Assembly: GCA_944341895.1 (NCBI GenBank)
Contig: CALVMB010000006.1
Span: 1 to 48,221, forward strand
Length of the DNA stretch: 48,221 bases
Origin: an uncultured Clostridia bacterium
GTDB lineage: Bacteria > Bacillota > Clostridia > Christensenellales > Borkfalkiaceae
Direction: 5' to 3'
In this document: piece after piece, positions 3,237 to 23,249 of the stretch
How the letters are laid out: each line of letters starts with the position of its first letter
Position numbering within the stretch: position 1 is the stretch's first letter
Position numbers and translations under genes: made by a program
Notes under the pieces: generated by a model
Databases searched by the model: none
What the model was told of the DNA's origin: nothing
The model's input: only the letters and a program-made list of their open reading frames with translations

Positions 3237-3260
3237 AATTAAATCGGAATCGATACTTGC
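3237..3260. promoter_or_regulatory. Operator (partial palindrome) for the divergent GH127 / metallo-hydrolase promoters
   Basis: The first 13 bases match the palindrome at 5457-5480 exactly (arm AATTAAATCGG plus centre AA). The second arm keeps CGAT; in all 17 of 24 positions agree. The site begins 8 nt past the minus-strand -10 box, exactly the offset of the 5457 site from its own -10. It also overlaps the plus-strand -35 box, so one bound repressor could block both directions. Confidence 0.65.
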
Positions 3261-3285
3261 TTTTTTCCATTATATATGATATACT
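3257..3285 (+). promoter_or_regulatory. Promoter of the metallo-hydrolase / ROK repressor pair
   Basis: -35 TTGCTT at 3257-3262, 17-nt spacer, -10 TATACT at 3280-3285. It lies face to face with, and overlaps, the GH127 promoter. Its -35 box falls within the operator, so the repressor gene is probably autoregulated. Confidence 0.6.
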
Positions 3286-3297
3286 GTGAAAAAGCAA
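3269..3297 (-). promoter_or_regulatory. Promoter of the GH127 gene
   Basis: Read on the minus strand: -35 TTGCTT (3297-3292), 17-nt spacer, -10 TATAAT (3274-3269). Transcription would start near 3262, inside or at the edge of the operator. Confidence 0.65.
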
Positions 3298-3315
3298 TGG
3301 ATTGAGGTGAGAAAA

Positions 3316-4086
3316 ATGCCGGAATTTGAAGTGTTGTTTTTGGGAACATGCGCCGCGGATTTCAGCCCGCGCCTGAAAACGGACAAAAAGGATTGTTTCG
3401 ACAAGGACATCCGCCGTTCGTCGAGCATGCTGCTCAACGGCCACATCCTGGTCGACTGCGGCCCGCACACGCTGGATTCCATGCGCATCGCGGGCGTACC
3501 GCTTAGCGCGGTGACGGACATTTTTCTGACGCATCTGCACGACGATCATTTCGATCCCGAAAACGTTGCGCGCGTCGCGGCGGAATGCGGCGGGCTCCGC
3601 CTGTGGGTGCGCGAGGACGCCGTGCTGACCCCGCCTGCGGGGGTGACGCTCATGCGCATGCGCCCCATGCAGGAATACGACGCGGGCGAGGGCATCCGTG
3701 TGACGGGGTACGAGGCGAACCACACCGAATTCCCCCAGCACCTGCTGTTCGAGCGCAACGGCAAAACGATCTATTATGCGCTGGACGGCGCGTGGATCCT
3801 GTACGAAACGTTTTTGAAGATCCGCCGCAAATACATCGATCTGGTCGTGATGGACTGCACGATGGGGGATTACGACGGCGATCTGCGCGTGTATGCGCAC
3901 AATTCCATCCCGATGGTGCGTTCGCTGCTCCGCTCGTTCGCCACGGTGGGGATCACGGGCGAGCAGTCGCAGATCTACATGTCGCACCTGGCGCCTTCGC
4001 TGCACAAGTCTCACGAAGAGACGGTGCAGATCTGCGCGCAGTTCGGCGCGAAAGTCGCCTACGACGGACTTACGCTCACGGTCTGA
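3316..4086 (+). CDS. Metallo-beta-lactamase-fold hydrolase (PhnP-like)
   Basis: A 256-residue MBL-fold protein. The metal-binding motif HLHDDH (in FLTHLHDDHFDP) appears about 75 residues in. Later ligand regions are visible as NHTEFPQH, an acidic MDCTMGDYDGD and MSHLAP. The layout resembles the PhnP branch (phosphodiesterases acting on cyclic sugar phosphates), but the substrate cannot be read from sequence. ATG 3316 follows GAGGTGAG at good spacing; the GTG at 3286 is too close to the -10 box. It is a soluble cytoplasmic enzyme. The ROK repressor gene starts 16 nt downstream, so the pair is co-transcribed and probably under the same operator as GH127. Confidence 0.75.
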   Translation: MPEFEVLFLGTCAADFSPRLKTDKKDCFDKDIRRSSSMLLNGHILVDCGPHTLDSMRIAGVPLSAVTDIFLTHLHDDHFDPENVARVAAECGGLRLWVREDAVLTPPAGVTLMRMRPMQEYDAGEGIRVTGYEANHTEFPQHLLFERNGKTIYYALDGAWILYETFLKIRRKYIDLVVMDCTMGDYDGDLRVYAHNSIPMVRSLLRSFATVGITGEQSQIYMSHLAPSLHKSHEETVQICAQFGAKVAYDGLTLTV

Positions 4087-4102
4087 GTCGGAGGATTTCC
4101 GT

Positions 4103-5266
4103 ATGTCTATGATCGAAAAGCGCAAGCGGGAGCGCATCAATCTCGTTCTGAACACCATCAAAGCGCATCCGGGCGCGTCCAAAACCGAGATCAAGACTTT
4201 TTCGGGGCTGTCGATGGAGGTCGTTCTGCAATATATCGACTATCTGACCGAAGAGGGGCTGATCTGCTGTGCGGACGCAAAGACGGGCGGCGCAAAGGTG
4301 GGCAGGCGGGCGGATCGGTATCTGCTCAACCCTGCGGGCGGGAAATTTCTGGGCATCAAGTTCACGGCGCGCAGGGTGAGCGGGGTCGTCATCGATTTCT
4401 GCGGAAACGTGCTCGCCACATACGAATCGGAAAAGGAAACGCGGAGCATCGCGCCGCAGGAATTGCTGGACAGGCTGTACCGCTGTATCGACAGGCTTGC
4501 GGAGACCTTTCCGCCCGACACGCTGACGGCGATCGGGCTGGCTGCCCCCGGCTTTGTGGACAGCGGAACGGGCGAACTGGTCCGCTACAACAACCTGCAG
4601 AGCGACGTTCCGCTGCGACTGAAGGCGGAAGTGGAGAAAAAATACGGCATTCCCGTCTTTGTGGACGGCACGACCAGGGCAAAAGCCATCGCCTACCATC
4701 TGAACGCGGGCAAAGAACTGGAAAATTTCGTGTACATCTTTATCGGCACGGGCTGTTCGGCGGCGTACGTCCATAAAAACAACCTGTACCGCGGCGCCAA
4801 CAATTTTGACGGCGAACTGGGGCACATCCCCGTGTTCGGGCGGGACGAGGTGTGCAGTTGCGGCAAGCGCGGCTGCCTGGAAACGGTGGTCGGCAACCGC
4901 CATATCATCCGCGAAATGCAGCGCCGCGGCGCGGAAGGGTGCGCCACTGTCGACGATTTTGTCGCCGCCGCCGAGGCGGGCGACCCTATCGCCGCCGCGG
5001 TGATGGAAGAAGCGGCAAAGTGCGCGGCGTACGCGATCGCCGCGGTGGTCACGCTGAACGATCCGGGGCAGGTCGTCCTCTGCGGCGATTATACGGCGAC
5101 GCAGATCTTCCGCGCGATGTTCGAAAAGTGGTTTTCCGCGTTCTGCCTCAAAGACCTGTGCGACCGCACGACCTTCCAGTATATCCGCAACCAGAAATCG
5201 GACAACGCCGTGGACGCCGCTCTGCTCTGCTACTATAATCTTTATTATAATAAAAACCTGGTATGA
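4103..5266 (+). CDS. ROK-family transcriptional repressor
   Basis: 387 residues. The N-terminus is a winged helix-turn-helix (about residues 5-65, with SKTEIKTFSGLSMEVVLQYI), followed by a ROK sugar-kinase-like domain. ROK signatures are clear: DGELGH near residue 238 and the zinc site CSCGKRGCLE near residue 250. NagC/XylR-type ROK repressors bind sugars or sugar phosphates and release DNA. ATG 4103 has GGAGG upstream; the frame is open further 5' but overlaps the previous gene. It is the only DNA-binding protein in the glycan locus, so it is the best candidate to bind the 24-bp palindromes at 3237 and 5457; that link is inference. A terminator follows at 5326. Confidence 0.85.
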   Translation: MSMIEKRKRERINLVLNTIKAHPGASKTEIKTFSGLSMEVVLQYIDYLTEEGLICCADAKTGGAKVGRRADRYLLNPAGGKFLGIKFTARRVSGVVIDFCGNVLATYESEKETRSIAPQELLDRLYRCIDRLAETFPPDTLTAIGLAAPGFVDSGTGELVRYNNLQSDVPLRLKAEVEKKYGIPVFVDGTTRAKAIAYHLNAGKELENFVYIFIGTGCSAAYVHKNNLYRGANNFDGELGHIPVFGRDEVCSCGKRGCLETVVGNRHIIREMQRRGAEGCATVDDFVAAAEAGDPIAAAVMEEAAKCAAYAIAAVVTLNDPGQVVLCGDYTATQIFRAMFEKWFSAFCLKDLCDRTTFQYIRNQKSDNAVDAALLCYYNLYYNKNLV

Positions 5267-5456: not shown

Positions 5457-5480
5457 AATTAAATCGGAACCGATTTAATT
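5457..5480. promoter_or_regulatory. 24-bp palindromic operator of the large operon
   Basis: Perfect 11-bp arms, AATTAAATCGG and its complement, around a 2-nt AA centre. It begins 8 nt after the -10 box, so a bound protein would block promoter clearance, the classical repressor position. A partial copy at 3237-3260 has the same offset from the GH127 -10 box. Confidence 0.8.
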
Positions 5481-5505: not shown

Positions 5506-8500
5506 ATGAAAAGGGGCATAGTTGCGCTTTTATCCTTTGTGGGGGCGCTGATGTTTATCGCGGCGGCGACCATCGCGCCGCTGCTGACGGTGCAGGCCGC
5601 GGACGTTTCGGGCATCAGAGCCGTGCAGGCGATGTTCGAAACGGAAAACACCGACGATTTTTCAACGTTCGGCGACGAGAACAACGTTTTGGTCACGCAG
5701 GCGGACAATATGCGCGTGACCGCCACCAATGCAAACGGAGAGGATGAGACGCACAACCAGACGACGACCATCCGCTATAAAACCCCCATTTACCTCGCGG
5801 ACAATTCCGACGAAGTGCCGTTCTTTGCGTTTTCGGTCTATGGACAGGACGCTTCCAAACGCGACTTCGACGCGATGATCGTCACGCTGACGGACGCCGA
5901 GGACCCGAGCAACCAGGTCAGCGTGCTCATCGGCTTCTGGTGCACGTTTGATTCTGAGTGGTCTACCGTCTATGCAAAGGGAAGGGGGCAGTCCTATCTC
6001 GGCTACCATTATAACCCGGATAAGACCAAGGTGCTGAAGACCCCCCCTGAGCAGGGCACCTTGGTCAATCGGAAAGTGGAAACAAGCGTTGAGAGCACGC
6101 AGTCGCTGTACTACGACGCGGCGACAAACCGCGTGCTCGTCGATTGGGGATTCTCTTCTTATGCAAGCCGCGGCGGCACGGTCACCAACGCCGGCGGCAC
6201 CGTGCTCACCGTCGTGCGCGATCTTACGGACGACGAGACGACGGGCAACGACGGCGTTTCGTTTACGAAGAGCATCGAGTCGGCGTATCTGGAAGTGACC
6301 ACCGTCCGCGGCTGGTATAAATATGGCGGAATCGGGGAAGAGCCTACCATATACAGTTCAAAATTCCGCGGCGGCAGTGCGAGCGGTCACACGCTCAGCG
6401 ATTATGGCGCGCGTTATCTCATCCGCTCCATCGACGGGCTGCCCTTCGGCCTGACGGGCGACAAGCTGGAAGACAGCGCACCCGTCTATTTCGGAAACTC
6501 GTTCGACAGCAACGGCACGGTGACCATCCCCGCATTGCAGAAGTATACCGTCCTGGGCGGCATTTCGGATGCATCGGCATATACCGCGGGGCTCTATATC
6601 GAAGTCAAGGATTCGGAAGGGCAGGCGGTCACGCCAACAGGTCTTGCAGGCGGCAAGTGGGCGCAGGGCTGTACTTTTGCGGGCGAGAGCGGCACGTATA
6701 CGATCCATTACTATGCGGACGCCGACAAACAGAGCCTCGTGGCTTCGGTGAGCGGCAAAGTGTACCGCCCCGACTATGAAAATGCCGAACCGATCGCCGA
6801 TCCGAATGCGTTCGGCGGCGCGGAAAGCGCGTTCGGCTGGGAAAATTTCCGCGTCGGCAATTCGGCGCTGATGAGTGGCGTGACGGTGAGCACGGACAAG
6901 AAGAGCACCGTCGTCTATCGGAAGGACATCGACATTTCGGACAACACCGCAGACGACGTGTTGCTGGAGTTCGTCGCCATTCCCGCCGAGGTGGGCGTGT
7001 ATGACTTTACCTCCGTCACCTTCCGCCTCATCGACAAGACCGATCGGGAAAACTATTTGACCGTCAATCTCGCCGAGGGACCGTACGGCGCCGAGACGCT
7101 GGGCGGCATGAAGGCGGGCGGCAACAACCAGGATCTGTACGGGCTCAAACTCTACCGCAAAGAGAACGAGTACGACATGACGGTCATCTCGCAGACGCTT
7201 TCGGGGCAGAGCAACGGGAGCATCCCGTACATGCCCATCTGCCTGTACTATGACAAAGCGGCAAATGCGCTGTATGTCTCGCGTTCCTTCAATAACAATT
7301 CGCAGTCGGCGGTCAAAGGGCTGGTGCGAGACTTCGACGATACGACGCTGATCATCAACGAGGACGGCGACACCGTCACGCAGGAAGCGTGGAGCGGGTT
7401 CAAGGGCGAATATGTGACGCTGGAGATCACGGTGGATGCCGTCGCCGCCGGCAAGACGGCAAAGTACGGCATCCTGACCGTGGACGGCGAGCGGCTGACC
7501 AAGCGCCTGACGACCGAATTTTCCTACGACGGCATCGTCGGATACGAATATGCGCTGCCGACCCCCGAATATGTCAGCGGGCTGACGGGCGCGGCGGCGG
7601 ACTTCGCCACGGCGAAATCGGGCGTGCGCGTGCTGTTCGGTTCGGATGAATGCACCGTCGAAGGCGGCAAATTCACGCCGAAGCAGGCGGGCGAGTACAC
7701 CGTGCAATATGCGGTGGAAGAAAACGGCACCGTCTATATGGCGGAATACACCCTCACCGTGTATGCGGAAGACAGTGCCCCCGCTGTGGAGTTCGATCTT
7801 TCGGGCGCGGGCGTGAGCGCGGGCGATTCCGTCTATATGGGCGGCGGTATCCGCGGCGAAGTCACCGCTTCGACGGAGTTGCACCATGACGGGAGCGCCT
7901 GCACCGTGACGGCAGAGTTGTTCAAGGACGATTCTTCCGTGCAGGCGTTTGCAGACGGGCAGTACGAATACACCTTTACCGAGACGGGCGAATACACCCT
8001 CGTGTTGACCGCCGAGGACAAGGCGGGGCGCATCACGCGCAAAGTGTTGCCGATCACGGTCACGCGCACGAGCATCGTGTTTGCCGACCCCGACGCGCAG
8101 CAGTCCATCCTCGACCGCACCGATACCATCGCGTTTTCCGCCGCCGACGTCGTGGCGAGCGACGTCCGCATCGAAAACGGGCAGACCCTGGTCACCGAAC
8201 AGTCCGATTTCGTGACGACGTCGGTCACCATCGAATATGCATACGAGGACGGCGCGTTCGCCGCATGGACGCAGGATTCGGCGATGGACGAACCCGGAAA
8301 CTATACCGTCCGCTATACCGTCCGTTACACGCTGGAAGACAGCGTCGATGAATATACCGCGCAGTGCCTGCGCACCGTCAAGGTCGTGGACAATACGCCG
8401 CCCGTGCTGGGCGAGATCGTCGCGCCCGAGGGCGCCATTCCGGATCCCTCGCAGGAATCCACTGACGACGCGCTGTATTTCAAGTCGCTCACGGGCGGCA

Positions 8501-9396
8501 CGGTCACGGTGGCGGAAGTCACCGCATCGGATGCGCGCGGCGACGGGCCGATCGATCTGAGCGATGCGGTGGTGGCAAAATTCACCGCCCCCGACGGCAG
8601 CGGCGAGGAGATCGCCTTTGCGGACGGGAAGTTCACCTTCACACCCGAAGCGATCGGCATCTATTATGTGGCGTTCACGGTCAGCGACGGCGTGCTCACC
8701 GATAGGCGCGTGTTCGTGTTCGACGTGCGTGCCGTCTGGCTGGACGCCGCGTTTGAAAGCGAAACGCTTGCGGACGGCGTCTACGGCAAGGCTTACACCC
8801 TTCCCGCGCCCGCCGTCACCGGTTTTAGCGGCGCGGCGATCGCGGACGCGGCGGTCACGGTGGAAGTGATCCCGCAGGGCGGCACGGCACAGGCAGTGCA
8901 GGGATATACCTTTACGCCGACGCAGACGGGCTCTTACACCGTCCGCTATACCGTCGCCTACGGCGGCGAGAGCGTGGTCAGAGAGTTCGTTCTCGAAGTC
9001 AAGGACACCACTCCGCCCGTCATCCGTTTTGAGACGGAAGTGCCCGCGACCGCGACGGCAGGCGATACCGTCGTCCTGCCCGCGATCATCGTGACGGACG
9101 ACAAAGATACCGTTTCCGAATACCGCGTCTGGATCGAGTTCGGCGGCGTGCGCACCGAGATCTTCGACCTCGCGTTCAAGGCGGAACAGGAGGGCGTGTA
9201 CAAAGTGATCGTCCAAAGCAGCGACGCGGCGGGCAATCCCGCCGAGATCAGCGCCGAGATCACCGTCGTCGCACCGAGCGAAGGCGGCGGGCAGGGCTGG
9301 GTCATCGCGGTCTGCTGCATCGCGGGTGCGGCAGTCGTGGCAGGCGGCGTCGCGGCGGCGGTCATCGTCGTGCGCAAAAAGAAAAAGGCAAACTGA
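5506..9396 (+). CDS. Large membrane-anchored surface protein with repeated modules and Ig-like domains
   Basis: 1296 residues. An N-terminal signal peptide ends near TVQAAD (residue about 30). The C-terminus has a glycine linker (SEGGGQGW), one transmembrane helix and a KKKKAN tail, so the protein should be tethered outside the cell membrane. Two copies of a module of about 220 residues are visible, at about 40-290 and 440-670. Each has the landmarks xTLTDxxDPSN (VTFRLIDKTDREN in copy 2), YYDxAxN and VRDxxDD in the same order. Between and after them lie at least six Ig-like repeats ending in strands such as GEYTVQY or GSYTVRYTV, some with DNTPPV or DTTPPV linkers. No catalytic motif is seen. 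As first gene of an ABC-importer operon it is probably a surface glycan-binding protein. GGAGG sits 7 nt before ATG 5506. Confidence 0.75.
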   Translation: MKRGIVALLSFVGALMFIAAATIAPLLTVQAADVSGIRAVQAMFETENTDDFSTFGDENNVLVTQADNMRVTATNANGEDETHNQTTTIRYKTPIYLADNSDEVPFFAFSVYGQDASKRDFDAMIVTLTDAEDPSNQVSVLIGFWCTFDSEWSTVYAKGRGQSYLGYHYNPDKTKVLKTPPEQGTLVNRKVETSVESTQSLYYDAATNRVLVDWGFSSYASRGGTVTNAGGTVLTVVRDLTDDETTGNDGVSFTKSIESAYLEVTTVRGWYKYGGIGEEPTIYSSKFRGGSASGHTLSDYGARYLIRSIDGLPFGLTGDKLEDSAPVYFGNSFDSNGTVTIPALQKYTVLGGISDASAYTAGLYIEVKDSEGQAVTPTGLAGGKWAQGCTFAGESGTYTIHYYADADKQSLVASVSGKVYRPDYENAEPIADPNAFGGAESAFGWENFRVGNSALMSGVTVSTDKKSTVVYRKDIDISDNTADDVLLEFVAIPAEVGVYDFTSVTFRLIDKTDRENYLTVNLAEGPYGAETLGGMKAGGNNQDLYGLKLYRKENEYDMTVISQTLSGQSNGSIPYMPICLYYDKAANALYVSRSFNNNSQSAVKGLVRDFDDTTLIINEDGDTVTQEAWSGFKGEYVTLEITVDAVAAGKTAKYGILTVDGERLTKRLTTEFSYDGIVGYEYALPTPEYVSGLTGAAADFATAKSGVRVLFGSDECTVEGGKFTPKQAGEYTVQYAVEENGTVYMAEYTLTVYAEDSAPAVEFDLSGAGVSAGDSVYMGGGIRGEVTASTELHHDGSACTVTAELFKDDSSVQAFADGQYEYTFTETGEYTLVLTAEDKAGRITRKVLPITVTRTSIVFADPDAQQSILDRTDTIAFSAADVVASDVRIENGQTLVTEQSDFVTTSVTIEYAYEDGAFAAWTQDSAMDEPGNYTVRYTVRYTLEDSVDEYTAQCLRTVKVVDNTPPVLGEIVAPEGAIPDPSQESTDDALYFKSLTGGTVTVAEVTASDARGDGPIDLSDAVVAKFTAPDGSGEEIAFADGKFTFTPEAIGIYYVAFTVSDGVLTDRRVFVFDVRAVWLDAAFESETLADGVYGKAYTLPAPAVTGFSGAAIADAAVTVEVIPQGGTAQAVQGYTFTPTQTGSYTVRYTVAYGGESVVREFVLEVKDTTPPVIRFETEVPATATAGDTVVLPAIIVTDDKDTVSEYRVWIEFGGVRTEIFDLAFKAEQEGVYKVIVQSSDAAGNPAEISAEITVVAPSEGGGQGWVIAVCCIAGAAVVAGGVAAAVIVVRKKKKAN

Positions 9397-9414
9397 CGCG
9401 CGAGCGTGAAAGCG

Positions 9415-9438
9415 GGGAAAGGGCGTTTGCCCTTTCCC
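9415..9438 (+). other. Intercistronic stem-loop
   Basis: Perfect 10-bp stem (9415-9424 with 9429-9438), loop GTTT, between the first surface protein and the solute-binding-protein gene. No U-run follows, so it is unlikely to stop transcription. A processing or mRNA-stabilising role that raises binding-protein output is plausible. Confidence 0.5.
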
Positions 9439-9469
9439 GCCAAATTTGTTGATAGGAGAAAGTTCCGAG

Positions 9470-11104
9470 ATGAAAAAGAAATTGATGAGAGTATTGTTGG
9501 CACTGCTTGCGTCCGCCTTGCTGGCGGGGTTTGTCGGGTGCAGTTACAGCGGCATCGATAAATCCAAGACGCAGTTGTACGTGGGCGTTTACAAGGGCGG
9601 CTGGGGCACCGAATGGCTGGACGACGCAAAGGCGCGTTTTGAGGCGGAATATACCGACTATCAGATCATCATCACCCCCTTAAAAGATGAGTATGAATAT
9701 TCGCAGTTGAAAAACACCATCGCGACCGACTTCAACGATATGTACATCACCGCGTGCGCCTATTACAACTATATCAAGGACGACCAGATCCTCGACATCA
9801 CCGACGCGGTGACGAAGGACATGGCCGACCTCGGCGAGGCGGGAAAGACGGTGGAATCCAAGATGGAGCAGACGCACCGCGACTTTTACAAGACGGCGGA
9901 CGACAAGTACTACGCGGTACCCTTCGGGTCGTCGGTGTGGGGGCTGAACTACGACGTGGACCTGTTTGAGGAGAGCGAACTGTTCATCGCCTCGTCGGAC
10001 GGCTCGGGCACAGGCATCACCTGGACGAGCGGCAAACAGGGCGCGCCCGCAAAATCGGCGGGCAGGGACGGCGAGGTCGGCACCTACGACGACGGCTGCC
10101 CCGTCACATGGGCGGATTTTCAGGCGCTGCTGCGCCGCATGGCGTCGCGCAACATCACGCCGTTCATCTGGTCGAATTCGGGCTACAAACAGCAGACCCT
10201 GCTCTCGCTGTGGGCGGATTCCGAGGGCGCGGAAAACTTTGAAAAGATCAAAACGCTGTCGGGCACGTTCACCGATTACCAGGGCACGGAACGCACGCTG
10301 TCCGTCGAGAAGGGGTATGAGATCAACCTCATGCAGGGCAAGTACAATGCTCTGCAGTTCGCGCAGTTCATCTCTGCCAACGGCTATTTCGAGAACAATT
10401 CGGGCACCTTCGGGTTTACCGAAACGCAGGACGCATTTATCGATTCCAAGCACAAGGCGACGCTCGGCCAGGGCAACCGCATCGCGTTCATCATCGAGGG
10501 CGGGCACTGGTACAACGAGAACAAGCCGTACATCGAGCAGACCAACCAGCAGTTGTACAAGGATGAGTACGGGCAGAGCGGCCGCCGCTTCTCGATGATG
10601 CCGTTTCCTTCCTTCGGCGATACGGTGAACGAAACGGCGACCTATCTGGAAAGTTCGCACGAGTTTTCCATGTTCGTGAACGCGCAGACGGATAACGCAG
10701 ACCTTGCCAAACTGTTCATCCGCTTCCTCTGCACCGACGAGAGCCTGCGCAAGACGACGGTGCTGAGCGGCCTGCACAGAAACTTTGAATACACCCTTTC
10801 CCAAGAGGAACTGGCACAGATGCCGTATTATTATCAGGAGTTGTACCGCCTGCAATCTTCGGACAAGGTGGACATCGTGAGCGCGCGGCAAAACAACGAT
10901 TTCTACATCAAAAACCAGAATCTGGCGAGCATCGTCGGGTGGGTGTTCCAGGGTTCGTTCACGAACAACCGCGGAACGAAGACCAGCCTGACCGAACCGT
11001 TTGACGATTTCCGCTATTACACGAAAGAAGGACTGACCGTCGACAAATACATGCAGGGCAGTTACGAGTACTATAAGAGCCAGTGGGGGACGATGTATCA
11101 ATGA
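9470..11104 (+). CDS. ABC importer substrate-binding lipoprotein (sugar family)
   Basis: 544 residues. A lysine-led signal peptide (MKKKLMRVLLALLASALLAG) is followed by a lipobox cysteine in FVGC near residue 24, so it is lipid-anchored on the outer face of the membrane. The body has the layout of family-1 extracellular solute-binding proteins. A short beta-alpha opening (TQLYVGVYKGGWGTEW) is followed by VPFGSSVWGLNYDVDLFEE, which is typical of carbohydrate binders. ATG 9470 follows AGGAGAA; an ATG eight codons earlier lacks this. The stop overlaps the first permease start (ATGA). No ATPase is encoded here, so the transporter presumably shares a multi-sugar MsiK-type ATPase encoded elsewhere. 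Ligand unknown; probably an oligosaccharide. Confidence 0.88.
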   Translation: MKKKLMRVLLALLASALLAGFVGCSYSGIDKSKTQLYVGVYKGGWGTEWLDDAKARFEAEYTDYQIIITPLKDEYEYSQLKNTIATDFNDMYITACAYYNYIKDDQILDITDAVTKDMADLGEAGKTVESKMEQTHRDFYKTADDKYYAVPFGSSVWGLNYDVDLFEESELFIASSDGSGTGITWTSGKQGAPAKSAGRDGEVGTYDDGCPVTWADFQALLRRMASRNITPFIWSNSGYKQQTLLSLWADSEGAENFEKIKTLSGTFTDYQGTERTLSVEKGYEINLMQGKYNALQFAQFISANGYFENNSGTFGFTETQDAFIDSKHKATLGQGNRIAFIIEGGHWYNENKPYIEQTNQQLYKDEYGQSGRRFSMMPFPSFGDTVNETATYLESSHEFSMFVNAQTDNADLAKLFIRFLCTDESLRKTTVLSGLHRNFEYTLSQEELAQMPYYYQELYRLQSSDKVDIVSARQNNDFYIKNQNLASIVGWVFQGSFTNNRGTKTSLTEPFDDFRYYTKEGLTVDKYMQGSYEYYKSQWGTMYQ

Positions 11105-12138
11105 GCAGGAAAGAGCCGAAAAAGGGGACGGACCGCTCTTCGCTTCGGGAAAAGGTGAAGTGGGGGATCTATGACCTGAAATGCGCGTTCCACAACAAAG
11201 TCGGGGTACGGCTGCACGGCAAAAAGACCTCGACGATGACCAAGGCGCGCGTGTACGAAAAACTGTTTCTGGCGGCGGTGCTGGCGTTTCCGCTGACCAT
11301 CTTCTGCGTCTTTTATATCGGCGTCAACATCAACAGCATTTTCCTGGCGTTCAAGGAGTACGACTCCGCGACGGGAAAATATTTCTGGTCGGGCTTCGGC
11401 AACTTTAAGCAGTTTTTCGAGATGATGAACTCGGAAGCGTTCATGGGGTACGCATGGAAGAACACGTTCATCCTGTTCGCCGTCAACCTCATCATCAACC
11501 TTCCTTTCCATATCATCAACGCGTACTACGTTTACAAGAAGAATCCGCTGTCCAAGACCTTTCGGTTTTTGTTGTTTTTGCCGTCCATCCTCTCCAGCGT
11601 CATCACGGTCACCATGTTCAAGTATTTCATGGTGTACGGGCTGCCCGGCATCTACAAACTCTTCAAACTGGGGGAGGCGCCCAACCTGATCTACGACCCC
11701 TCCACGGGCTTTGCCACCATCATCGGCTATTCCTTCTGGGTGAATTTCGGCGGTTCCATCATCCTGTTTCTGGGACTGATGAACAGGATCCCGCCCGATA
11801 TCCTGGAAGCGGCGTCGCTGGACGGGATCACGCCCGTCAAGGAGTTCTGGCACATCATCCTGCCGCTCATCTTCCCCACCATCAGCATTTATATCATCAA
11901 CCTTCTCGCGGGGTTCTTCGCACAGCAGGGTTCGCTGTACACCTTTTACGGCACGGACGCGCGCAACGAGTTTTATACCTTCGGGTACTATTACTACATC
12001 CAGGTGCTCGGCGAGGCGGGCGTTCCCAAATACCCGGTCGCCTCGGCGGCGGGCCTGCTGTTTACCGTCGTGACCGTTCCCGTCACGCTGTTTGCACGGT
12101 GGGGGATGAACAAACTCTGCCCCTCGGTGGATTATTGA
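11101..12138 (+). CDS. ABC sugar importer permease, LplB/UgpA-type
   Basis: 345 residues with a long basic cytoplasmic N-terminus (about 65 residues), then about six transmembrane helices. The EAA loop that docks the ATPase is clear (EAASLDGITPVKEFWHIILP, about residue 240). The start overlaps the binding-protein stop by ATGA, giving translational coupling. It pairs with the next gene to form the membrane channel. The long N-terminus is characteristic of the LplB-like permeases that go with large binding lipoproteins. Confidence 0.9.
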   Translation: MSRKEPKKGTDRSSLREKVKWGIYDLKCAFHNKVGVRLHGKKTSTMTKARVYEKLFLAAVLAFPLTIFCVFYIGVNINSIFLAFKEYDSATGKYFWSGFGNFKQFFEMMNSEAFMGYAWKNTFILFAVNLIINLPFHIINAYYVYKKNPLSKTFRFLLFLPSILSSVITVTMFKYFMVYGLPGIYKLFKLGEAPNLIYDPSTGFATIIGYSFWVNFGGSIILFLGLMNRIPPDILEAASLDGITPVKEFWHIILPLIFPTISIYIINLLAGFFAQQGSLYTFYGTDARNEFYTFGYYYYIQVLGEAGVPKYPVASAAGLLFTVVTVPVTLFARWGMNKLCPSVDY

Positions 12139-12147
12139 GGTACTGCC

Positions 12148-13044
12148 ATGACGAAAAGCAAAGTCAAAAACGGCAAGTGGGGCGTGTTCCGCATCGTGAT
12201 GCTCTTGCTGCTTTCGGTGTACTCCGTCACGATGATCTTTCTGATCGCGTGGGTGCTGCTCTCTTCCTTCAAGGCGAAGTCGGATTTCAACTTCTATCCG
12301 CTCGGCTTCCCCAAAAAATTCTATTTTGAAAACTACGTCAACATCTTCCGCGAACTGAGCGTGCAGGTCACCGTTCCGGGCATCGGGCAGAGGAGCATCT
12401 ACTTCCCCGAACTGTTCCTGTATTCGCTCTTATACAGCGTGGGATGCACGGCGGTCTCCATCATCTCCAAAGCGATGGTCGCCTACGCGGTGGCAAAATA
12501 CCGCTTCCGCCTCGCTCCCGTGCTGTATACGGTGAACATCATCGTCATGATCGTTCCCATCGTCGGGCGCCTGCCCAGCGAATTGCAGTTGATGCGCGCG
12601 ATCGGGTTCTATGACAACCTTCTGGCGCTCTGCATCATGAAAGGTTCGTTCACGGGCATGGATTTCATGCTGCTGCACGCCACCTTCTGCACCGTTTCGT
12701 GGGAATACGCGGAGGCGGCGAAGATCGACGGCGCTTCGCATTTCACGATCATGTGGAGCGTCATGTTTCCCATGGTCAAGCAGGTCATCCTCATCCTTGC
12801 GCTGACCAACTTCATCACATACTGGAACGACTGGAACGTGAACGTCACGTATATGCCCAGTTATCCGACGGCGGCATATGCGCTGTACACTTTCCAGAAC
12901 AGCAACATCAACTCGATCAGTATGGGCGGCGTTCCGTATGTGCTCTGCGCCTGTACCGTCGTCATGCTCCCCATCTTGGTCCTGTTCTACGTGTTCCGCG
13001 ATCATTTTATGGGGGAGGTCAGTTTCGGAGGTTTGAAAGGATGA
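12148..13044 (+). CDS. ABC sugar importer permease, YtcP/UgpE-type
   Basis: 298 residues with about six transmembrane helices. It has the second-permease EAA loop (EYAEAAKIDGASHFTIMWSV, about residue 190) and the usual IVPIVGRLPSELQLMRAIG region. It begins 9 nt after the first permease and its stop overlaps the next gene by ATGA. The protein ends with the typical RDHFMGEVSFGGLKG-like tail of this permease class. Confidence 0.9.
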   Translation: MTKSKVKNGKWGVFRIVMLLLLSVYSVTMIFLIAWVLLSSFKAKSDFNFYPLGFPKKFYFENYVNIFRELSVQVTVPGIGQRSIYFPELFLYSLLYSVGCTAVSIISKAMVAYAVAKYRFRLAPVLYTVNIIVMIVPIVGRLPSELQLMRAIGFYDNLLALCIMKGSFTGMDFMLLHATFCTVSWEYAEAAKIDGASHFTIMWSVMFPMVKQVILILALTNFITYWNDWNVNVTYMPSYPTAAYALYTFQNSNINSISMGGVPYVLCACTVVMLPILVLFYVFRDHFMGEVSFGGLKG

Positions 13045-15896
13045 CGAAACGCGTCAAAAAAACATTTGCGGCAACGGCATGCGCCGCTCTGCTTCTGCTG
13101 TGCACCCTCTGCGCGCTGTTCGGCTTTGCGCCGAAACGGGCGGATGCGCTCACGGCGGACGACCTGCTCAGCGGGCCTGCCGTGACCGTGGAACAGGGCG
13201 CTTCTCTGCCCTCGTATATGGAGAAGATCTGGTGGAACGGCCGTTACTATTCTTCGGACGAACTGACCGCGGTGCGCATCGCCACCGACGGCTCGTCCAC
13301 GACGGCGACGGTGAAGTACGGCAGGGTCATCGACCTGTCCGACTGCGACGAAAATTTCCGCCTGTTCGATTTCATCATCGCGCCGGCGAGCGGGCGCGCC
13401 TTCGACGATTCGGTGGCGAGCGTCACCGTCGACGACTACGAGTTCCGCTCCTTTGAAGTGACGCTGACGGACGTGTACGACCCGTCCAACGTCGTGACGC
13501 TGGATTTCGAGCGCAGACAGGATTTCTGGTATTATAGTTCCATCCGCGTGAGCGCGCCGGGGCAGACGAGCGCGGGCTGGGTGGAATCCAGCCAGGCGAT
13601 GCGCCAGACCCCGTTCGGCACGCCGCTGACCTCTTCGTTCACCGGCTGTCCCGCCGACGCGAACGGAAATTACGGCGTCATCTCCACCTTCTTCGACTAT
13701 GCGGAACGCGCCGTCTACGCCCAACCGTACAGCGCTTCCAAAGCAAAGGCGGTGGTGCGCGATCTGGATAATTCCGAACATTTCCTGCCCGGTGAAAGCA
13801 CCCCCTGGAACGGATTCACGACGGGGGAGGTCAACCTTTCGTTCACCTTCCGCACCGTCGCCGATTCGACCAAAGCCTGCATTTATCTGTTCACGCTCAA
13901 CGGACAGGACCTGACGGGGGAGGAGATCGTGGACACCACGCCTCCCGTCGTAAAGACGGTGGACGAGAACCTGCAAAACGGCGTTCCCGAGGCGGAAGTT
14001 TCCCGCCCGTACCGCGTGTTTGCCGCGCAGGCGTACGACGCGCTGGACGGCAAACTGGACGCGTCGGACATCGACGTGCGCGTCACCCGTCCCGATCAGA
14101 CGACGGAGATCGGCGTGGGAACGGACGGATGTTTCGTTCCCGACGTCGCGGGCGTATACGAGATCGAGTGGAGCATCGCCGATTCTTCGGGCAACGTCGG
14201 GCGGTATGTGCTGTCCGTGACGGCGCGCGGGAAACTGACCGATCTGCAGATCGAAGTGCAGGACAACGACTTGCGGGAGCAGTACTCCGTCGGCGAGACG
14301 GTGCGCATCCCGCAGGAGATGGCGGTCCGCGGCGGCGCGGGCGCCTATCGCACCTCCGTGCGCGTGCTCGACTGCGCGACGGGGGAAGAGATCGCCGCGG
14401 CGGGCGGCAGTGTCGTGTTTGTCCGCGAGGGATACTACGCGGTGGTGTACCGCGCGGAGGATTACATCGGCAACGTGACCATGCAGAAATATTTTCTGCT
14501 GGCAGAGGCGCGCGAACAGCCGTACGTGGAGGAACCCTCCATGCCCGAAGCGGTTCTCGCGGGCAAGCCCTTTACCTTCCCGTCCTTCACCGCGACCGAT
14601 TACAATTCCTATGCGGGAACGCCCGTTGCCGCGAACAAATACTATGAAGTGATCGCGGAGGGCGAAACGCAGCCGCGTATCGTCCGCGAAGGGGAATCCA
14701 TGATCCCCGCGGCGGGCACGGTGCGCTACCGCGTGTGCGCGGAAAACATCGCCGACCCGAGCGGGCGGTATGTGGGCGAAGAGAGGAGTTTTGTCGCGGC
14801 GGAAGCGGACAGCATCGGCGCCTATCTCTTCGACCCCGCGGGCAAGGTGCAGGCGGACTATTCTGCCGGTGCCGAGTATCCGCGCTACGTGGCACAGGGC
14901 GATACGCGCCTGGAATTCCTCAATGCGCTGAGCGCGGCGAACTTCTATTTCGGGTTCACCGTTCCCGCGGAGATCTCGGCGCTGAACACCGTCCGCTTCA
15001 CGGTGCGCGACAGCGTGGATGCGTCGCAGGTCTCCGTGATCGGCATTTCCCGCAACGGCGCGCAGCACTGCACGGTCACGCTGGACGGCGCCGTCGCCGC
15101 CACGCTGAACCTGCCCTTTGCGGATACGCCTTTTGAGTTGTATTTCTCCAACGGCTATGTGTATATCAACTCCACGCTGATCGGGCTGATCGGCGGTCGC
15201 GAGGGCATGCTCGCCTCGGGGCGGCTGTACCTCACCGTCGAAATGCAGGATTTTGCGGGCGAGGGCGGGTTCGTGCTCAACCGCATCAACAACCAGACGT
15301 ACGTCGGGCTGTACGAGGCGGGAGAGCGGTTCGACATGACGGCACCCGTCGTCGTGCCCGATGCCGACATCGCGCTCATCCGCTATGCGGGCGACCGCAT
15401 CGAAGTGCCGGGCGCGCGGGCGTACGACGTGCTCGATCCCGTCGTTACTCTCTCCCTGCGCGTTCTGCGCGGCGAAACGGAGATCTATTCCAGCATCGGC
15501 AGTGCGAAAGGCACGGTCATCGGCGCGGATATCCCCGGCGAATACACCATCATCTATATCGTTTCCGATTCGGCGGGGAACACGGCGAGCGCGAGTTATA
15601 CCGTCAAGGTATACAACCGCTCCGATCCCGTCCTGCGCGTGGCGGGGGACCTGCCCGCACAGATCCGCGTCGGGGAGAAAGTCTCCGTCCCCGCGGCGAC
15701 GGCGTCCGATTATGCGGGCACGGCGTTGGACGTATTCGTGTACGTCATCGACGCGGACGGCGTCATGCGCGCGGCGTCCGATTCCTTCGTCGCCGAAAAA
15801 GCGGGTACGTACACCGTGCGCTACTATTGTTTTGACGGGTACGGCTGTTATACGCTCCGCGATTATACCGTCGCGGCGGTCGGAGGTGCAAAATGA
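13041..15896 (+). CDS. Secreted modular protein sharing a domain with the 1296-aa surface protein
   Basis: 951 residues. A signal peptide (basic MTKRVKK, then ATACAALLLLCTLCALFG) probably ends near RADA. The first module, about residues 45-275, repeats the landmarks of the upstream surface protein: VTLTDVYDPSN at about 139, FFDYAERAVY at about 217 and VVRDLDN at about 237. Ig-like repeats follow (GVYEIEWSIADSSGN, GYYAVVYRAEDYIGN). A second, different beta-sandwich at about 590-770 contains FRFTV-like strands and NGYVYIN. Two more Ig-like repeats come last. There is no transmembrane anchor or sortase motif at the C-terminus (TVAAVGGAK), so it is released or held non-covalently. No catalytic residues are recognised; a glycan-binding partner of the importer is likely. 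ATGA overlaps occur at both ends. Confidence 0.7.
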   Translation: MTKRVKKTFAATACAALLLLCTLCALFGFAPKRADALTADDLLSGPAVTVEQGASLPSYMEKIWWNGRYYSSDELTAVRIATDGSSTTATVKYGRVIDLSDCDENFRLFDFIIAPASGRAFDDSVASVTVDDYEFRSFEVTLTDVYDPSNVVTLDFERRQDFWYYSSIRVSAPGQTSAGWVESSQAMRQTPFGTPLTSSFTGCPADANGNYGVISTFFDYAERAVYAQPYSASKAKAVVRDLDNSEHFLPGESTPWNGFTTGEVNLSFTFRTVADSTKACIYLFTLNGQDLTGEEIVDTTPPVVKTVDENLQNGVPEAEVSRPYRVFAAQAYDALDGKLDASDIDVRVTRPDQTTEIGVGTDGCFVPDVAGVYEIEWSIADSSGNVGRYVLSVTARGKLTDLQIEVQDNDLREQYSVGETVRIPQEMAVRGGAGAYRTSVRVLDCATGEEIAAAGGSVVFVREGYYAVVYRAEDYIGNVTMQKYFLLAEAREQPYVEEPSMPEAVLAGKPFTFPSFTATDYNSYAGTPVAANKYYEVIAEGETQPRIVREGESMIPAAGTVRYRVCAENIADPSGRYVGEERSFVAAEADSIGAYLFDPAGKVQADYSAGAEYPRYVAQGDTRLEFLNALSAANFYFGFTVPAEISALNTVRFTVRDSVDASQVSVIGISRNGAQHCTVTLDGAVAATLNLPFADTPFELYFSNGYVYINSTLIGLIGGREGMLASGRLYLTVEMQDFAGEGGFVLNRINNQTYVGLYEAGERFDMTAPVVVPDADIALIRYAGDRIEVPGARAYDVLDPVVTLSLRVLRGETEIYSSIGSAKGTVIGADIPGEYTIIYIVSDSAGNTASASYTVKVYNRSDPVLRVAGDLPAQIRVGEKVSVPAATASDYAGTALDVFVYVIDADGVMRAASDSFVAEKAGTYTVRYYCFDGYGCYTLRDYTVAAVGGAK

Positions 15897-17881
15897 AACG
15901 ACTGACCAAAATTCTTTGCATAGGGCTGGGCATTGTCATGGCAATTTCGCTGGCGGCTTGCAGCCGCGGAAAAGAGGAAGGGGACGCGCACGTCGACATC
16001 GACTCATACACTGTCGGCTATACCGATCACTGCATGTTTGAAAACGGCGCGACCGCGTATAAGATCATTCTCCCCGCGCAGGCGACGGAGTCGGAAAAAT
16101 ATGCGGCGCAGGAACTGTCCGCCATCTTCGAACAGTCCACGGGCAAGGCGCTCCCCGTCCTTGCGGAAGGCGGCGCCGCGGCGCCCTTCATCTCCATCGG
16201 GGACACGGACGCGGCGAAAAGCGCGGGCATCGACCCCAAGGCGCAGCCGCTCGGCAACGGCGGGTTCGTCATCCGCACCGTCGGGGAGAACCTCTACGTG
16301 AATTCGGACACCGAGGCGGGCAAGATCTACGGCGCCCTGTTCTTTGCGGAAAAGAACCTCGGCTACATGTATTACAGCGAGGACGAGATCCGCTACACCC
16401 GTTACGACAGGGTGATGCTGGGCGATTTCGACCTCGCCTATCGCCCCTCGTTCGACGGGCGCAACGTGTTCTCTTATGACACGCTGTACAACGCCGAGAC
16501 CGCCGTGCACCTGCGCCTCAACGGCGTGAGTTCGCTGCGCGACGAAAAATACGGCGAAGCCTCCATGTGGTCTACCCTGCACGACATGTCCAACGTCTTC
16601 CAGTTGCTGTACGTCAAGGACTATTACAACGATCACAAAAAGTGGTTCTACCTCTCGCCGCAGTACCGCGACACCGATTTCTCGCTGATGACGGACAACG
16701 AGTGCTACACCATCGTGCAGAAGCATTCGCAGCTGTGCTACACCGAGGGGTACTACAACGACGACGAAGGCGGCATGTTCGACACCTATGTGCAGAACCT
16801 GATCTCGTACATTCAGAACGAGCCGGACGCGACGCTGTTCATGCTCGGCATGGGCGACAACGAATATTTCTGCGATTGCGACCGCTGCAAAGAGGACATC
16901 GCCAAATACAAAGAGAGCGGCGTCATGCTGCGGTTCGTGAACAAAGTGGCGCGGGAGATCAAACGCTGGCTCAAGGAGGAGAGCGGCACGCCCGACCGCG
17001 AGATCTATCTGGTCGCGTTCGCCTATCTCACCGTCATGGAACCGCCCGTTCGCTACGAAAACAAACAGCCCGTTCCCATCGACGAGAGCGTCGTCGCGGA
17101 GGATAACGTCTGTATCCGCATCGCCCCGCTCACCAATTCCAACTTCTATTGGGCGATCAACGATCCAGAGCACAACAGTTTCATGAACAACAGCATCAGC
17201 GGCTGGCGGCAGATCGCCTCCAACTTCTCCATCTGGGATTACCGCGTGTACTACCACAACGTCGTCGCGCCGTACCCGTACTGGAACACCGTCAAGACCA
17301 ACCTTCTCGTCTATAAGGACATGAACGTGATCGACGTGTACCACCAGGGCATCGCGCAGACGTCGGGCGTGCCGTTCGGCAGGCTGGACGATTACGTGCG
17401 CGCCCGCCTGCTGTACAACCTGGACGCGGACGTCAACGCGCTGGCAAACGACTTCATCGAGCAGTATTACAAACAGGCGGCGCCGTACATCAAGGAGTAC
17501 ATCGCGTACCTGCGCACCTATTACGAGAACCACGTCGTTCCCGCGGGGTACAGCGGCAGCGTCTACACGACGGTGTTCACCAAAGAATTCTGGAGCCTGG
17601 AATTCCTGCTGTCCGTCAAGAACATCTTTGACAGGGCGTACGAGAGCATCGCCGGGCTGGAAGGGGAAGAGTACGAAAAGATGAAGGGCCGCATCGACGT
17701 GGAGAGCCGCTTCTATCGCTTCGGGCTGCTCGAACTGTATCCGTCCTACTTCACCAAGCCGCAGATCGCGGCCATGATCGCGGACTGGGAAAATGCAAAC
17801 GTCTTCAATCCGCTGTTGCAGAACGAGGTGCGCGTGGATATTTCGACCAAGGTCGACGAGTGGAAAGCATTGCTGAAATAA
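15893..17881 (+). CDS. DUF4838 domain lipoprotein
   Basis: 662 residues. A signal peptide ends in a lipobox (ISLAACS, cysteine near residue 23), so it is lipid-anchored outside the cell. The N-terminal 60-170 region has the ATESEKYAAQELSAIFEQSTGK pattern and the GNGGFVIRTVGENLYV strand typical of the small domain before GH20/GH67-like catalytic barrels. The central part matches DUF4838: YLSPQYRDTD, FMLGMGDNEYFCDCDRCK and later RIAPLTNSNFYWAIND. DUF4838 proteins resemble alpha-glucuronidase and hexosaminidase barrels, but their activity is largely undefined. Position between the secreted binder and a GH20-like gene points to extracellular glycan trimming. The start overlaps the previous stop (ATGA). 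Confidence 0.8.
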   Translation: MKRLTKILCIGLGIVMAISLAACSRGKEEGDAHVDIDSYTVGYTDHCMFENGATAYKIILPAQATESEKYAAQELSAIFEQSTGKALPVLAEGGAAAPFISIGDTDAAKSAGIDPKAQPLGNGGFVIRTVGENLYVNSDTEAGKIYGALFFAEKNLGYMYYSEDEIRYTRYDRVMLGDFDLAYRPSFDGRNVFSYDTLYNAETAVHLRLNGVSSLRDEKYGEASMWSTLHDMSNVFQLLYVKDYYNDHKKWFYLSPQYRDTDFSLMTDNECYTIVQKHSQLCYTEGYYNDDEGGMFDTYVQNLISYIQNEPDATLFMLGMGDNEYFCDCDRCKEDIAKYKESGVMLRFVNKVAREIKRWLKEESGTPDREIYLVAFAYLTVMEPPVRYENKQPVPIDESVVAEDNVCIRIAPLTNSNFYWAINDPEHNSFMNNSISGWRQIASNFSIWDYRVYYHNVVAPYPYWNTVKTNLLVYKDMNVIDVYHQGIAQTSGVPFGRLDDYVRARLLYNLDADVNALANDFIEQYYKQAAPYIKEYIAYLRTYYENHVVPAGYSGSVYTTVFTKEFWSLEFLLSVKNIFDRAYESIAGLEGEEYEKMKGRIDVESRFYRFGLLELYPSYFTKPQIAAMIADWENANVFNPLLQNEVRVDISTKVDEWKALLK

Positions 17882-17883
17882 GT

Positions 17884-19524
17884 ATGAAGATCAAAGCATT
17901 TGACGAGTTCGGCATCATGCTCGGTTGCGCCGCCAACGCGGTGCCGCGCATCGAGACGCTGGAAAAATACGCGGACGTCATGGCGGCGCTCGGCTACAAC
18001 GCGCTGTACCTGGAAACGGCGGATACCTACAAGATCGAGGGCGAGCCCTATTTCGGGTACATGCGCGGCGGCTACACCAAAGAGGAGATCCGCCGCCTGG
18101 ACGCATACTGCGCGGCGCGCGGCATCGAACTGGTGCCCGCCATCCAGACGCTGGCGCATCTGCATTTCCTCAAAAATTACGAGCGCTACCGCCCGCTCAT
18201 CGACGTGGAAGATATCCTTCTCGCCGAAGAGGAGCAGACGTACGCGCTCATCGACAAGATGTTCGCGGCGATCGCGGAAATGTACACCTCGCGCCGCGTC
18301 AACATCGGCATGGACGAGGCGTACCTGCTCGGCGCGGGCAAATACCTGTATCGGCACGGCTACCGCGACCGCACGGAGATCATGCTCGCGCACCTGCAAA
18401 AGGTGCTCGCCATCGCGGAAAAATACGGGTTCCGCTGCGAGATGTGGTCGGATATGTTCTTTCACGCGATCAGCGGCGGCAACGTGTACGAGGCGGAGGG
18501 CAAGTCCGTCCCGCCCGAGTGGAAAGCGCGCGTGCCGAAAAACCTCAAACTGGTGTACTGGGAATATTTCGTGCCCGATGCCGAAAAGTGCGGGCGCATG
18601 ATCGACATGCACCGCGCGATCTCGGACAACGTCAAGTATGCGGGGACCTTTTTCCGCTGGCACGGCGTCGCGCCCGCAAACGCGTTTACCAACAAGGTGA
18701 TGAAGCGCGCGCTCACCGCCTGCAAGGACAGAAAGGTGCGCGACGTGTTCTTCGCGCTGTGGGCGGATTACGGCGGCGGCGCGAGCATCTTTGCCATGCT
18801 CCCCGCCATGTACGAACTGAGCCGTTTTGCGGAAAACGATTGCCGCGACGGCGGCACGGAGCGCGGCGGGTTCGAAAGGCTGTTCGGCGTCCCGTACGAG
18901 GATTTCGCCCTTCTGGACGCGCTCAACTATCCCGCCACCGATTTCGGCACCAAAAAGGTCAGCGATCACAGGCTGAACAACAAGAGTTTTTTCTATCTGT
19001 ACAACGACGTGTTTTACGGCACCTTCGACAGTCTGCTCAAAGGCGGCATCTCCGCGCAGTACGCAAACGTGCGCGACCGTCTCAGGGAGGTGAACGCGGG
19101 GGAGTATTCCTACCTGTTCGATACGCTCGCCGCGCTCGCCGACGTGCTGTCCGTCAAAGCGGAACTGGGCAAGCGCATCCGCACGGCGTACGGCAAGGGG
19201 GACAAGCAGGCGCTGCGCGCGATCGCGGAAGGGGACATCCCCGCCCTGCTGAAAAAACTCGGCGCCTATTGTGCGGCGTTCGAACGCCAGTGGATGAAGG
19301 AAAACAAGCCGTTCGGGTTCGAGGCGCAGAACATCCGCCTCGGCGGGCTGAAAGAACGGCTCGCGTACGCAAAGCGCACGCTGGAAGGATATCTCGGCGG
19401 CGGGCTCGACCGCATCGCGGAACTGGAAGAGCCGCAGCAGCCCTTCGGGTTTTCCCCGTCACAGGATGAAGACAGTTATCAGATCACGCGTTACCTGCCC
19501 GCGGTGACGCACGGGTTTTTATGA
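17884..19524 (+). CDS. GH20-like beta-hexosaminidase, cytoplasmic
   Basis: 546 residues with no signal peptide. A TIM-barrel start is visible (FDEFGIMLGCAANAVPRIET, then ALGYNALYLETADTYKIEG). The GH20 Asp-Glu pair occurs in NIGMDEAYLLG as D144-E145; in GH20 the Glu is the acid/base and the Asp orients the substrate N-acetyl group. A helical C-terminal region of about 200 residues follows. It resembles the GH20 branch without an N-terminal helper domain. ATG 17884 lies 2 nt after the previous stop with no strong Shine-Dalgarno, so translation is probably coupled; GTG 17860 is an alternative. The substrate is presumably an imported hexosaminide, but other specificities are possible. Confidence 0.75.
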   Translation: MKIKAFDEFGIMLGCAANAVPRIETLEKYADVMAALGYNALYLETADTYKIEGEPYFGYMRGGYTKEEIRRLDAYCAARGIELVPAIQTLAHLHFLKNYERYRPLIDVEDILLAEEEQTYALIDKMFAAIAEMYTSRRVNIGMDEAYLLGAGKYLYRHGYRDRTEIMLAHLQKVLAIAEKYGFRCEMWSDMFFHAISGGNVYEAEGKSVPPEWKARVPKNLKLVYWEYFVPDAEKCGRMIDMHRAISDNVKYAGTFFRWHGVAPANAFTNKVMKRALTACKDRKVRDVFFALWADYGGGASIFAMLPAMYELSRFAENDCRDGGTERGGFERLFGVPYEDFALLDALNYPATDFGTKKVSDHRLNNKSFFYLYNDVFYGTFDSLLKGGISAQYANVRDRLREVNAGEYSYLFDTLAALADVLSVKAELGKRIRTAYGKGDKQALRAIAEGDIPALLKKLGAYCAAFERQWMKENKPFGFEAQNIRLGGLKERLAYAKRTLEGYLGGGLDRIAELEEPQQPFGFSPSQDEDSYQITRYLPAVTHGFL

Positions 19525-23239: not shown

Positions 23240-23249
23240 GGAGGGCGGC

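Follow-up and report, generated by a model that had tools for sequence, protein, structure and literature searches.

A lectin-like module without a named family in predicted exported proteins encoded with a carbohydrate ABC importer in an uncultured clostridium of the Borkfalkiaceae

Introduction

Surface binders of the SusD and SGBP type, found in Bacteroidetes, are among the described systems with which the locus reported here can be compared in role. SusD has an alpha-helical TPR fold and is paired with SusC, a TonB-dependent transporter, and SGBPs carry Ig-like domains before their binding domain. In Gram-positive bacteria, the L-type lectin-like domains of the staphylococcal surface proteins SraP, Pls, Aap and SasG have a role in adhesion and biofilm and, to our knowledge, are not encoded with an importer. 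The gpPUL is characterised in PMC5320581 as a single locus comprising a degrading enzyme, a transport system and a regulator. PMC10318527 describes the gpPUL of Blautia producta as having no SGBP, and also states that CBMs on endo-acting enzymes often take over the role of SGBPs.

Here we describe a locus in a 48,221-nucleotide stretch of DNA (the window) from an uncultured Clostridia bacterium of the family Borkfalkiaceae (GenBank assembly GCA_944341895.1, contig CALVMB010000006.1). It holds all the components of a gpPUL, namely GH20C, GH94 and DUF4838 proteins, a solute-binding protein (SBP) with two permeases, and a ROK regulator, and differs from described gpPULs in that the cassette always includes a dedicated module protein. 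A preliminary description of this DNA had proposed that the module was an undescribed beta-sandwich unit, present three times in two surface proteins, that binds glycans for a co-transcribed ABC importer.

Results and discussion

Gene content and transcription signals of the locus

Both open reading frames (ORFs) on which that proposal was built, of 1296 and 951 aa, were recovered as described (Table 1). The 1296-aa protein (P0001), encoded by the first gene after the promoter, has hydrophobic stretches at its N- and C-terminus; a signal is followed by modules A and B, then by a series of Ig-like domains and finally by a C-terminal membrane anchor with a basic tail. The 951-aa protein (P0002) has a signal sequence followed by module C, Ig-like domains, module D and further Ig-like domains, without a C-terminal anchor. 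Ig-like Pfam matches in both proteins agree with the claim that such repeats flank the module copies, those in the P0001 repeat region (PKD, Big_13, DUF4625 and others) being all under the curated cut-offs.

Table 1. Genes, module copies and putative signals of the locus, in window coordinates
Feature	Position	Strand	Basis or remark
ROK-family regulator (winged helix and ROK domain)	3893..5266	+	PF00480 E 1.6e-40
Sigma-70-like promoter TTGACA-17-TAAGAT before P0001	5420..5448	+	Consensus scan only
Perfect 18-bp palindrome TAAATCGGAACCGATTTA	5460..5477	.	Between promoter and P0001 start codon
P0001, 1296-aa exported protein (predicted)	5506..9396	+	ORF list, translation
Module copy A	5611..6465	+	P0001 residues ~36-320; profile match 86-266, E 4.6e-16
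Module copy B	6766..7524	+	P0001 residues 421-673; profile E 1.5e-33
Ig-like repeat region of P0001 (limits approximate)	7525..9270	+	PKD, Big_13, DUF4625, others
Hairpin without T run, gap between P0001 and SBP genes	9412..9440	+	Folding against shuffles
Carbohydrate ABC solute-binding protein (SBP)	9470..11104	+	Lipobox FVGC near start
ABC permease 1	11083..12138	+	PF00528 E 3.2e-5, just under cut-off
ABC permease 2	12148..13044	+	PF00528 E 4.8e-11
P0002, 951-aa module protein	13041..15896	+	ORF list; Ig-like PF16403 above cut-off
Module copy C	13158..13937	+	P0002 residues 40-299; profile, alignment, model
Module copy D (divergent)	14832..15416	+	P0002 residues 598-792; HHalign 97.9%, E 5.6e-13
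DUF4838 protein (GH163-like) with GH67-type N-terminal domain	15893..17881	+	PF16126 E 1.3e-45, PF03648 E 1.8e-6
GH20C-type beta-N-acetylglucosaminidase	17860..19524	+	PF18088 E 7.1e-51; PDB 5a69 E 9.7e-111
GH94 glycan phosphorylase	19521..21956	+	PF17167 E 3.1e-35

The best NCBIfam matches of the SBP were TIGR03850 (E 1.4e-15) and then TIGR03851 (NgcE, E 3.5e-10), both far under the curated cut-offs. The DUF4838 protein has a lipobox (LAAC), and the GH94 protein matched in the PDB first 4zle, a putative beta-glycan phosphorylase, and second chitobiose phosphorylase. None of the operon genes was found to encode an ATPase; one of UgpC/MsmX type lies elsewhere in the genome (468 bits against a cut-off of 432). 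The ROK regulator has a separate gene upstream of the operon; the true start of this regulator gene probably lies inside the ORF given in Table 1. Two further glycosidase genes stand one on each side of the operon, encoding a GH127 beta-L-arabinofuranosidase (1330-4194, minus strand) and a GH36 alpha-galactosidase (23142-25403, plus strand), so that plant glycoconjugates may also serve as substrates. Elsewhere in the window, an AAA_21 ATPase gene (35134-36051) overlaps a 424-aa ORF (34005-35276) that has no Pfam match and may not be a real gene.

Overlaps join the genes for SBP and permease 1, permease 2 and P0002, P0002 and the DUF4838 protein, the DUF4838 protein and GH20C, and GH20C and GH94, with P0002 sharing 4 bases with the stop of permease 2 at its start and 4 bases with the start of the DUF4838 gene at its stop. 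Because most neighbours overlap, as expected of one transcript, the operon is likely to be co-transcribed. The palindrome upstream of P0001 is a possible candidate for the operator of this operon; its 14-base core occurs only once in the available genome sequence, and similar, imperfect palindromes are found at the same place before the orthologous gene in two related loci (L035 and L036). In the gap between P0001 and the SBP gene, a 77-base stretch with the hairpin gave a folding z of -3.0, with 2 of 200 shuffles folding as well. This stable hairpin could be a partial terminator or an RNA-processing stem, and P0001 may therefore be expressed at a different level from the remaining genes.

Four homologous module copies in two proteins

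The module had originally been recognised by the ordered landmarks TLTDxxDPSN, YYDxAxN and VRDxxD. By exact search these correspond to TLTDAEDPSN (residue 127), YYDAATN (202) and VRDLTD (237) in copy A, to RLIDKTDREN (507), YYDKAAN (581) and VRDFDD (607) in copy B, and to TLTDVYDPSN (141), FFDYAER (217) and VRDLDN (239) in copy C. The order of the landmarks holds in all three copies, but three of the nine strings (the first of B, the second and third of C) depart from the consensus, which was therefore idealised. Likewise, the distance between the first two landmarks is near-equal as claimed, although it amounts to 75, 74 and 76 residues and not to 77, 77 and 78.

Homology of these three copies was borne out by Smith-Waterman comparisons, with z scores against shuffles of 7.2 for A-B, 6.4 for A-C and 16.7 for B-C, none of 1000 shuffles reaching any of the scores. 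BLASTP found 24% identity between B and C in an alignment of 239 columns, and an iterated copy-C profile, built on 31 family sequences without P0001 among the relatives, matched P0001 twice (Table 1). The copy number of three has to be raised to four, given a second, divergent copy (D) in P0002. Pairwise comparison with D gave no signal (z -0.3 for C-D, -0.5 for A-D and 1.6 for B-D), and the family profile is weak on this copy (E 0.014 and 0.0042). HHalign of the C block with the D block, both taken from a 55-sequence alignment, returned the probability of 97.9% listed in Table 1, against 0.1 to 7.2% for Ig-like control blocks, except for D with Ig5 (85.6% over 26 edge columns). A second, divergent copy was detected at E 1e-3 or better in 29 of 30 homologs, the exception being truncated (L019); since the iterated profile may include D-type copies, these matches are not independent evidence. 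The possibility that the module is an Ig-like domain was rejected, HHalign giving at most 2.5% for C against five Ig blocks and at most 7.2% for D against Ig1-Ig4.

Mean column identity across module copies is 22%, and some relatives have three or more copies per protein. Among the long module proteins are one of 1604 aa with three or more copies (L132, 3439-8250) and one of 1928 aa with at least three, encoded between permeases and DUF4838 (L133, 6008-11791).

The module has no model in the libraries searched

As the preliminary description had supposed, the module is without a named family: no Pfam or NCBIfam model covers it, and what P0001 and P0002 matched in these two libraries is Ig-like or weak and falls outside the modules. 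A Pfam scan of copy C returned 0 families, while in 61 module copies no Pfam family occurred in more than two (best E 0.0021) and the six NCBIfam matches, each confined to a single copy, had E values of 0.023 or higher. A match to LamG, which would have spoken against novelty, was likewise not clear; Laminin_G_3 (PF13385) was detected in only 2 of the 61 copies, at E 0.018 or worse, and the LamG reading was rejected. No CBM models were found among the Pfam matches of the window proteins and the 61 copies, and a search of PDB sequences with the module profile reached no better than E 0.33, the entries being seven nanobodies and, at E 4.1, a myxobacterial hemagglutinin.

A phage origin was also rejected, given that no relative of P0002 was found in phage records (tblastn, E 1e-5) or in viral contigs (pattern scan and tblastn); P0001 and P0002 had no PHROGs match, and the single plasmid match to P0002 covers residues 784-945, which are Ig-like domains. 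Among the titles and abstract openings listed on DUF4838, GH163, gpPULs and Borkfalkiaceae, mainly from non-subscription literature, there was no description of the module. What is new is thus a domain family nameless in the libraries searched, together with a conserved module-importer cassette of a known general kind.

Predicted fold and conserved positions

Consistent with the beta structure originally anticipated, AlphaFold2 models of copy B alone and of the P0002 chain, which includes C and D, are all-beta. The copy B model (mean pLDDT 87.4, pTM 0.86) has fifteen strands and no helix longer than three residues, and P0002 residues 34-951, modelled with 55 sequences, gave a mean pLDDT of 89.7 and a pTM of 0.58, as is common for proteins in which many domains are strung together. 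When the copy B model was compared with the PDB by Foldseek, no match reached E 0.001 (best E 1.2e-3) and the TM-scores listed were 0.47 or lower. The top match was a PL7 alginate lyase and CBM66 (4b1m) ranked 7; the best 50 consisted mainly of PL7 lyases, the lectin domains of staphylococcal SraP, Pls, Aap and SasG, CBM66, and legume and animal L-type lectins, and also included a SPRY domain and an enzyme that we take to be of GH16. Judging from their descriptions, 43 of these 50 are presumably concanavalin A-like (lectins, lyases, glucanases, SPRY, CBM66), and the remaining seven comprise four agarase chains and three proteins from phages or viruses. On the basis of these models, the module probably is a divergent branch of the concanavalin A-like fold class and not a new fold, the class assignment being only moderate because of E values above 0.001 and TM-scores of at most 0.47. 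Foldseek with the whole 918-residue P0002 model gave little information, the best 50 being mostly long multi-domain beta proteins, with the SraP ligand-binding region ranking 17. Matches in a viral structure library were weak; the two under E 0.001 were to an entry without a name and to a phage protein of uncharacterised function.

The module shares with the staphylococcal lectin-like domains the predicted beta-sandwich class, the occurrence in surface proteins and the Gram-positive background, but is set apart from them by its TM-scores and its lack of a PDB sequence match. Compared with CBM66 and other beta-sandwich CBMs, which it resembles in its predicted fold and in being appended to DUF4838 in two proteins (see below), it is longer (about 250 residues against about 160), has no Pfam match, and is found mostly in carriers without a recognised catalytic domain.

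The top rank of a PL7 lyase and the GH16 enzyme among the matches would be accounted for if the module were itself an enzyme, that is, a concanavalin A-like lyase or glucanase of PL7 or GH16 type. We regard this as very improbable, given that each protein has at least two copies with a mean column identity of just 22%, and that no Arg, His or Tyr, residues expected among the conserved positions of a PL7 enzyme, is found where 80% or more of 61 copies agree. The positions so conserved include (in P0002) D144, D147, N150, D219, D241, D243, W256 and G258-E263. The landmarks of the preliminary description hence hold conserved acidic positions of the family. Conservation of WxGFTTGE is partly a matter of ascertainment, because the 63 cassette loci described below were found by that pattern. 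These mostly acidic positions may be structural or metal sites; in the model, D144-N150 lie at a turn between two predicted strands, and this D-x2-D-P-x-N turn would, from its position, suit a metal site. It is at most suggestive of the calcium/manganese site that, together with sugar-binding loops, marks the L-type (legume) lectins.

A conserved cassette with an ABC importer and a DUF4838 protein

To describe the gene neighbourhood, we used 63 loci from named genome records, confirmed out of 76 pattern matches, and examined them with the window proteins as queries. They contain 67 module-bearing ORFs, of which 49 have enough upstream and 53 enough downstream DNA for evaluation; all were found by one motif, near-identical loci (e.g. 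L070 and L071) were counted apart, and related loci are not independent events. The cassette has the order SBP, permease, permease, module protein of the 951-aa type, DUF4838. The link to an ABC importer proposed earlier proved strong, SBP and both permeases lying directly upstream in 42 of 49 cases (the exceptions are two ORFs in L043, the accessory one of L051, and those of L055, L068, L081 and L090). A DUF4838 gene lies directly downstream of 47 of the 53 evaluable ORFs. Of the six remaining, one is split, one is an accessory gene, and four encode upstream proteins, namely those of L035 and L036 and a pair in L038. The source genome has a second cassette with the same five-gene order (L128, 6287-15031, G000:C3), and one assembly has four loci (L040, L076, L088, L092), each with SBP, permeases and module protein.

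This arrangement bears on the possibility that the module proteins are adhesins for host cells or mucus, without a nutritional role, as in the staphylococcal SraP, Pls, Aap and SasG domains. Such a function, which we consider improbable, would fit the rank of these domains among the best structural neighbours and the length and membrane anchor of P0001, but leaves the place of the module gene between ABC permeases (42/49) and a likely glycosidase (47/53) unexplained.

When distance matrices were compared across 39 complete cassettes, those for the SBP, the permeases, the module, the remainder of the module protein and DUF4838 proved to be correlated (r 0.72 to 0.89, Mantel p 0.0005), which reflects inheritance as a unit, shared species history included, and is not proof of physical contact.

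Distribution of the module

Within the taxonomic family, 151 genomes were sampled and 67 of them had a module match at E 1e-10; a genome can have as many as 9 matches, and more than one of these may fall in the same protein. DUF4838 (E 1e-5) occurred in 74 of the 151, with up to 16 matches per genome. It accompanies the module in 65 of the 67 genomes, and is found in 9 of the 84 without a module match (Fisher p 4.6e-30, kinship ignored). In a sample of the order 10 of 248 genomes, from three families, had a match, and samples of the class (291 genomes) and of the phylum (398) contained no module carrier beyond the source genome. Among named relatives Candidatus Gallimonas faecavium is the closest (64% identity), and species of Candidatus Borkfalkia are represented too, so that the source organism probably belongs to Gallimonas or is closely related to it. 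The best reading of these data is that the module is lineage-restricted, although two loci with Bacilli titles (L042 and L067) fit less well with restriction to one order.

Export, fusion to DUF4838 and possible ligands

An N-terminal hydrophobic stretch was found in 59 of 61 module ORFs of at least 850 aa, and export of the module carriers is accordingly predicted. The two that the search missed are L039 and P0002; the ORF of the latter opens 142 codons before the start used here, from which a hydrophobic start is plain. At L063 three further proteins combine Big_2 repeats with a module at the C-terminus, and two of the three carry a lipobox.

Of eight long DUF4838 ORFs that we examined, two, from the same genome, have module and DUF4838 fused. 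The first is an 1800-aa protein (L134, 2161-7560, G063:C4) with one module at residues 1003-1210 and a DUF4838 match at 1395-1663, and the second (L148, 2-5581, G063:C23) has three modules before its DUF4838 region, missed by the first profile and found only by the A5 profile (E 2.2e-5, 7.9e-10 and 4.8e-17). The six others (L137/L145, L138/L146, L142, L143, L144 and L147) gave no module match. Being joined to DUF4838 in two proteins is the arrangement of a carbohydrate-binding module, and if DUF4838 is an enzyme these fusions are cases of a non-catalytic module on a carbohydrate-active enzyme, as CBMs are defined.

The same fusions, and the C-terminal position of the module on lipoprotein-like proteins, weigh against the alternative that the modules are protein-docking or spacer units, P0002 being a scaffold for the SBP and the DUF4838 protein that binds no sugar, as does the fact that the fold neighbours mostly bind or cleave sugar. 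A protein-protein complex would explain gene order and correlated distances equally well, a large part of the chains consists of Ig-like regions, and the operon link could mean that the module interacts with the importer instead of a sugar; we nevertheless consider a scaffold unlikely and favour glycan capture.

As to the glycans captured, one annotation line in PMC9870897 labels a DUF4838 protein as GH163, and a Bacteroides GH163 enzyme, according to the review PMC10154615, acts at the cell surface to free LacNAc antennae from complex N-glycans. The DUF4838 protein of the window is likely to be a GH163-like enzyme. GH20C, GH94 (with chitobiose phosphorylase as second match) and the SBP models TIGR03850 and NgcE fit a GlcNAc-rich substrate, and the ligands here are likely N-acetylglucosamine-containing glycans, e.g. 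complex N-glycans; the up to 16 DUF4838 matches per genome argue against all cassettes acting on N-glycans.

A possible role in glycan capture

As the gene set is found repeatedly next to a sugar importer and an enzyme that is likely to cut sugars, the module protein probably catches surface glycans. The explanation that we favour, with a probability of roughly 0.6, is that a lineage-restricted, lectin-like (concanavalin A-like) module enables the exported P0002 to capture glycans for the ABC importer and the DUF4838 enzyme. The homology of the four copies, the gene order, and the co-occurrence and fusion with DUF4838 are observed directly; fold class and export are predicted, and sugar binding, the ligand and the hand-over to the importer we infer from these. 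P0002, with its two modules kept apart by Ig-like spacers, would work outside the membrane together with the ABC importer and the GH163-like DUF4838 enzyme, catching glycans or glycoconjugates at the surface and offering them to the enzyme, and would thereby raise the local level of freed oligosaccharides for the SBP. P0001, with modules A and B and its membrane anchor, may be a second capture protein of the locus.

Like SusD and SGBPs, the module protein is encoded with a transporter and a likely surface enzyme, and several cassettes are present in some genomes. Membership of SusD was rejected, since the module is predicted to be all-beta and the importer is an ABC system, with permeases in place of SusC. 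By analogy, the module cassette is best read as a Gram-positive counterpart of SusD and SGBPs in role, not in ancestry. More tentatively, and with somewhat less than even confidence, it might be supposed that these bacteria have their own counterpart of SusC/SusD, in which a lectin-like protein is obligatory to an ABC importer and a GH163-like enzyme and the cassettes have multiplied, each tuned to its glycan.

Conclusions

How glycans are captured ahead of ABC importers in Gram-positive gut bacteria is poorly explained, and the recurrent module protein of this five-gene cassette is a concrete candidate, with the module present in 67 of the 151 genomes sampled from one family. For many uncultured animal-gut species, the module also adds a new domain family to genome annotation. 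If the DUF4838 partner acts like GH163, the cassette would point to the use of N-glycans beyond Bacteroidetes.
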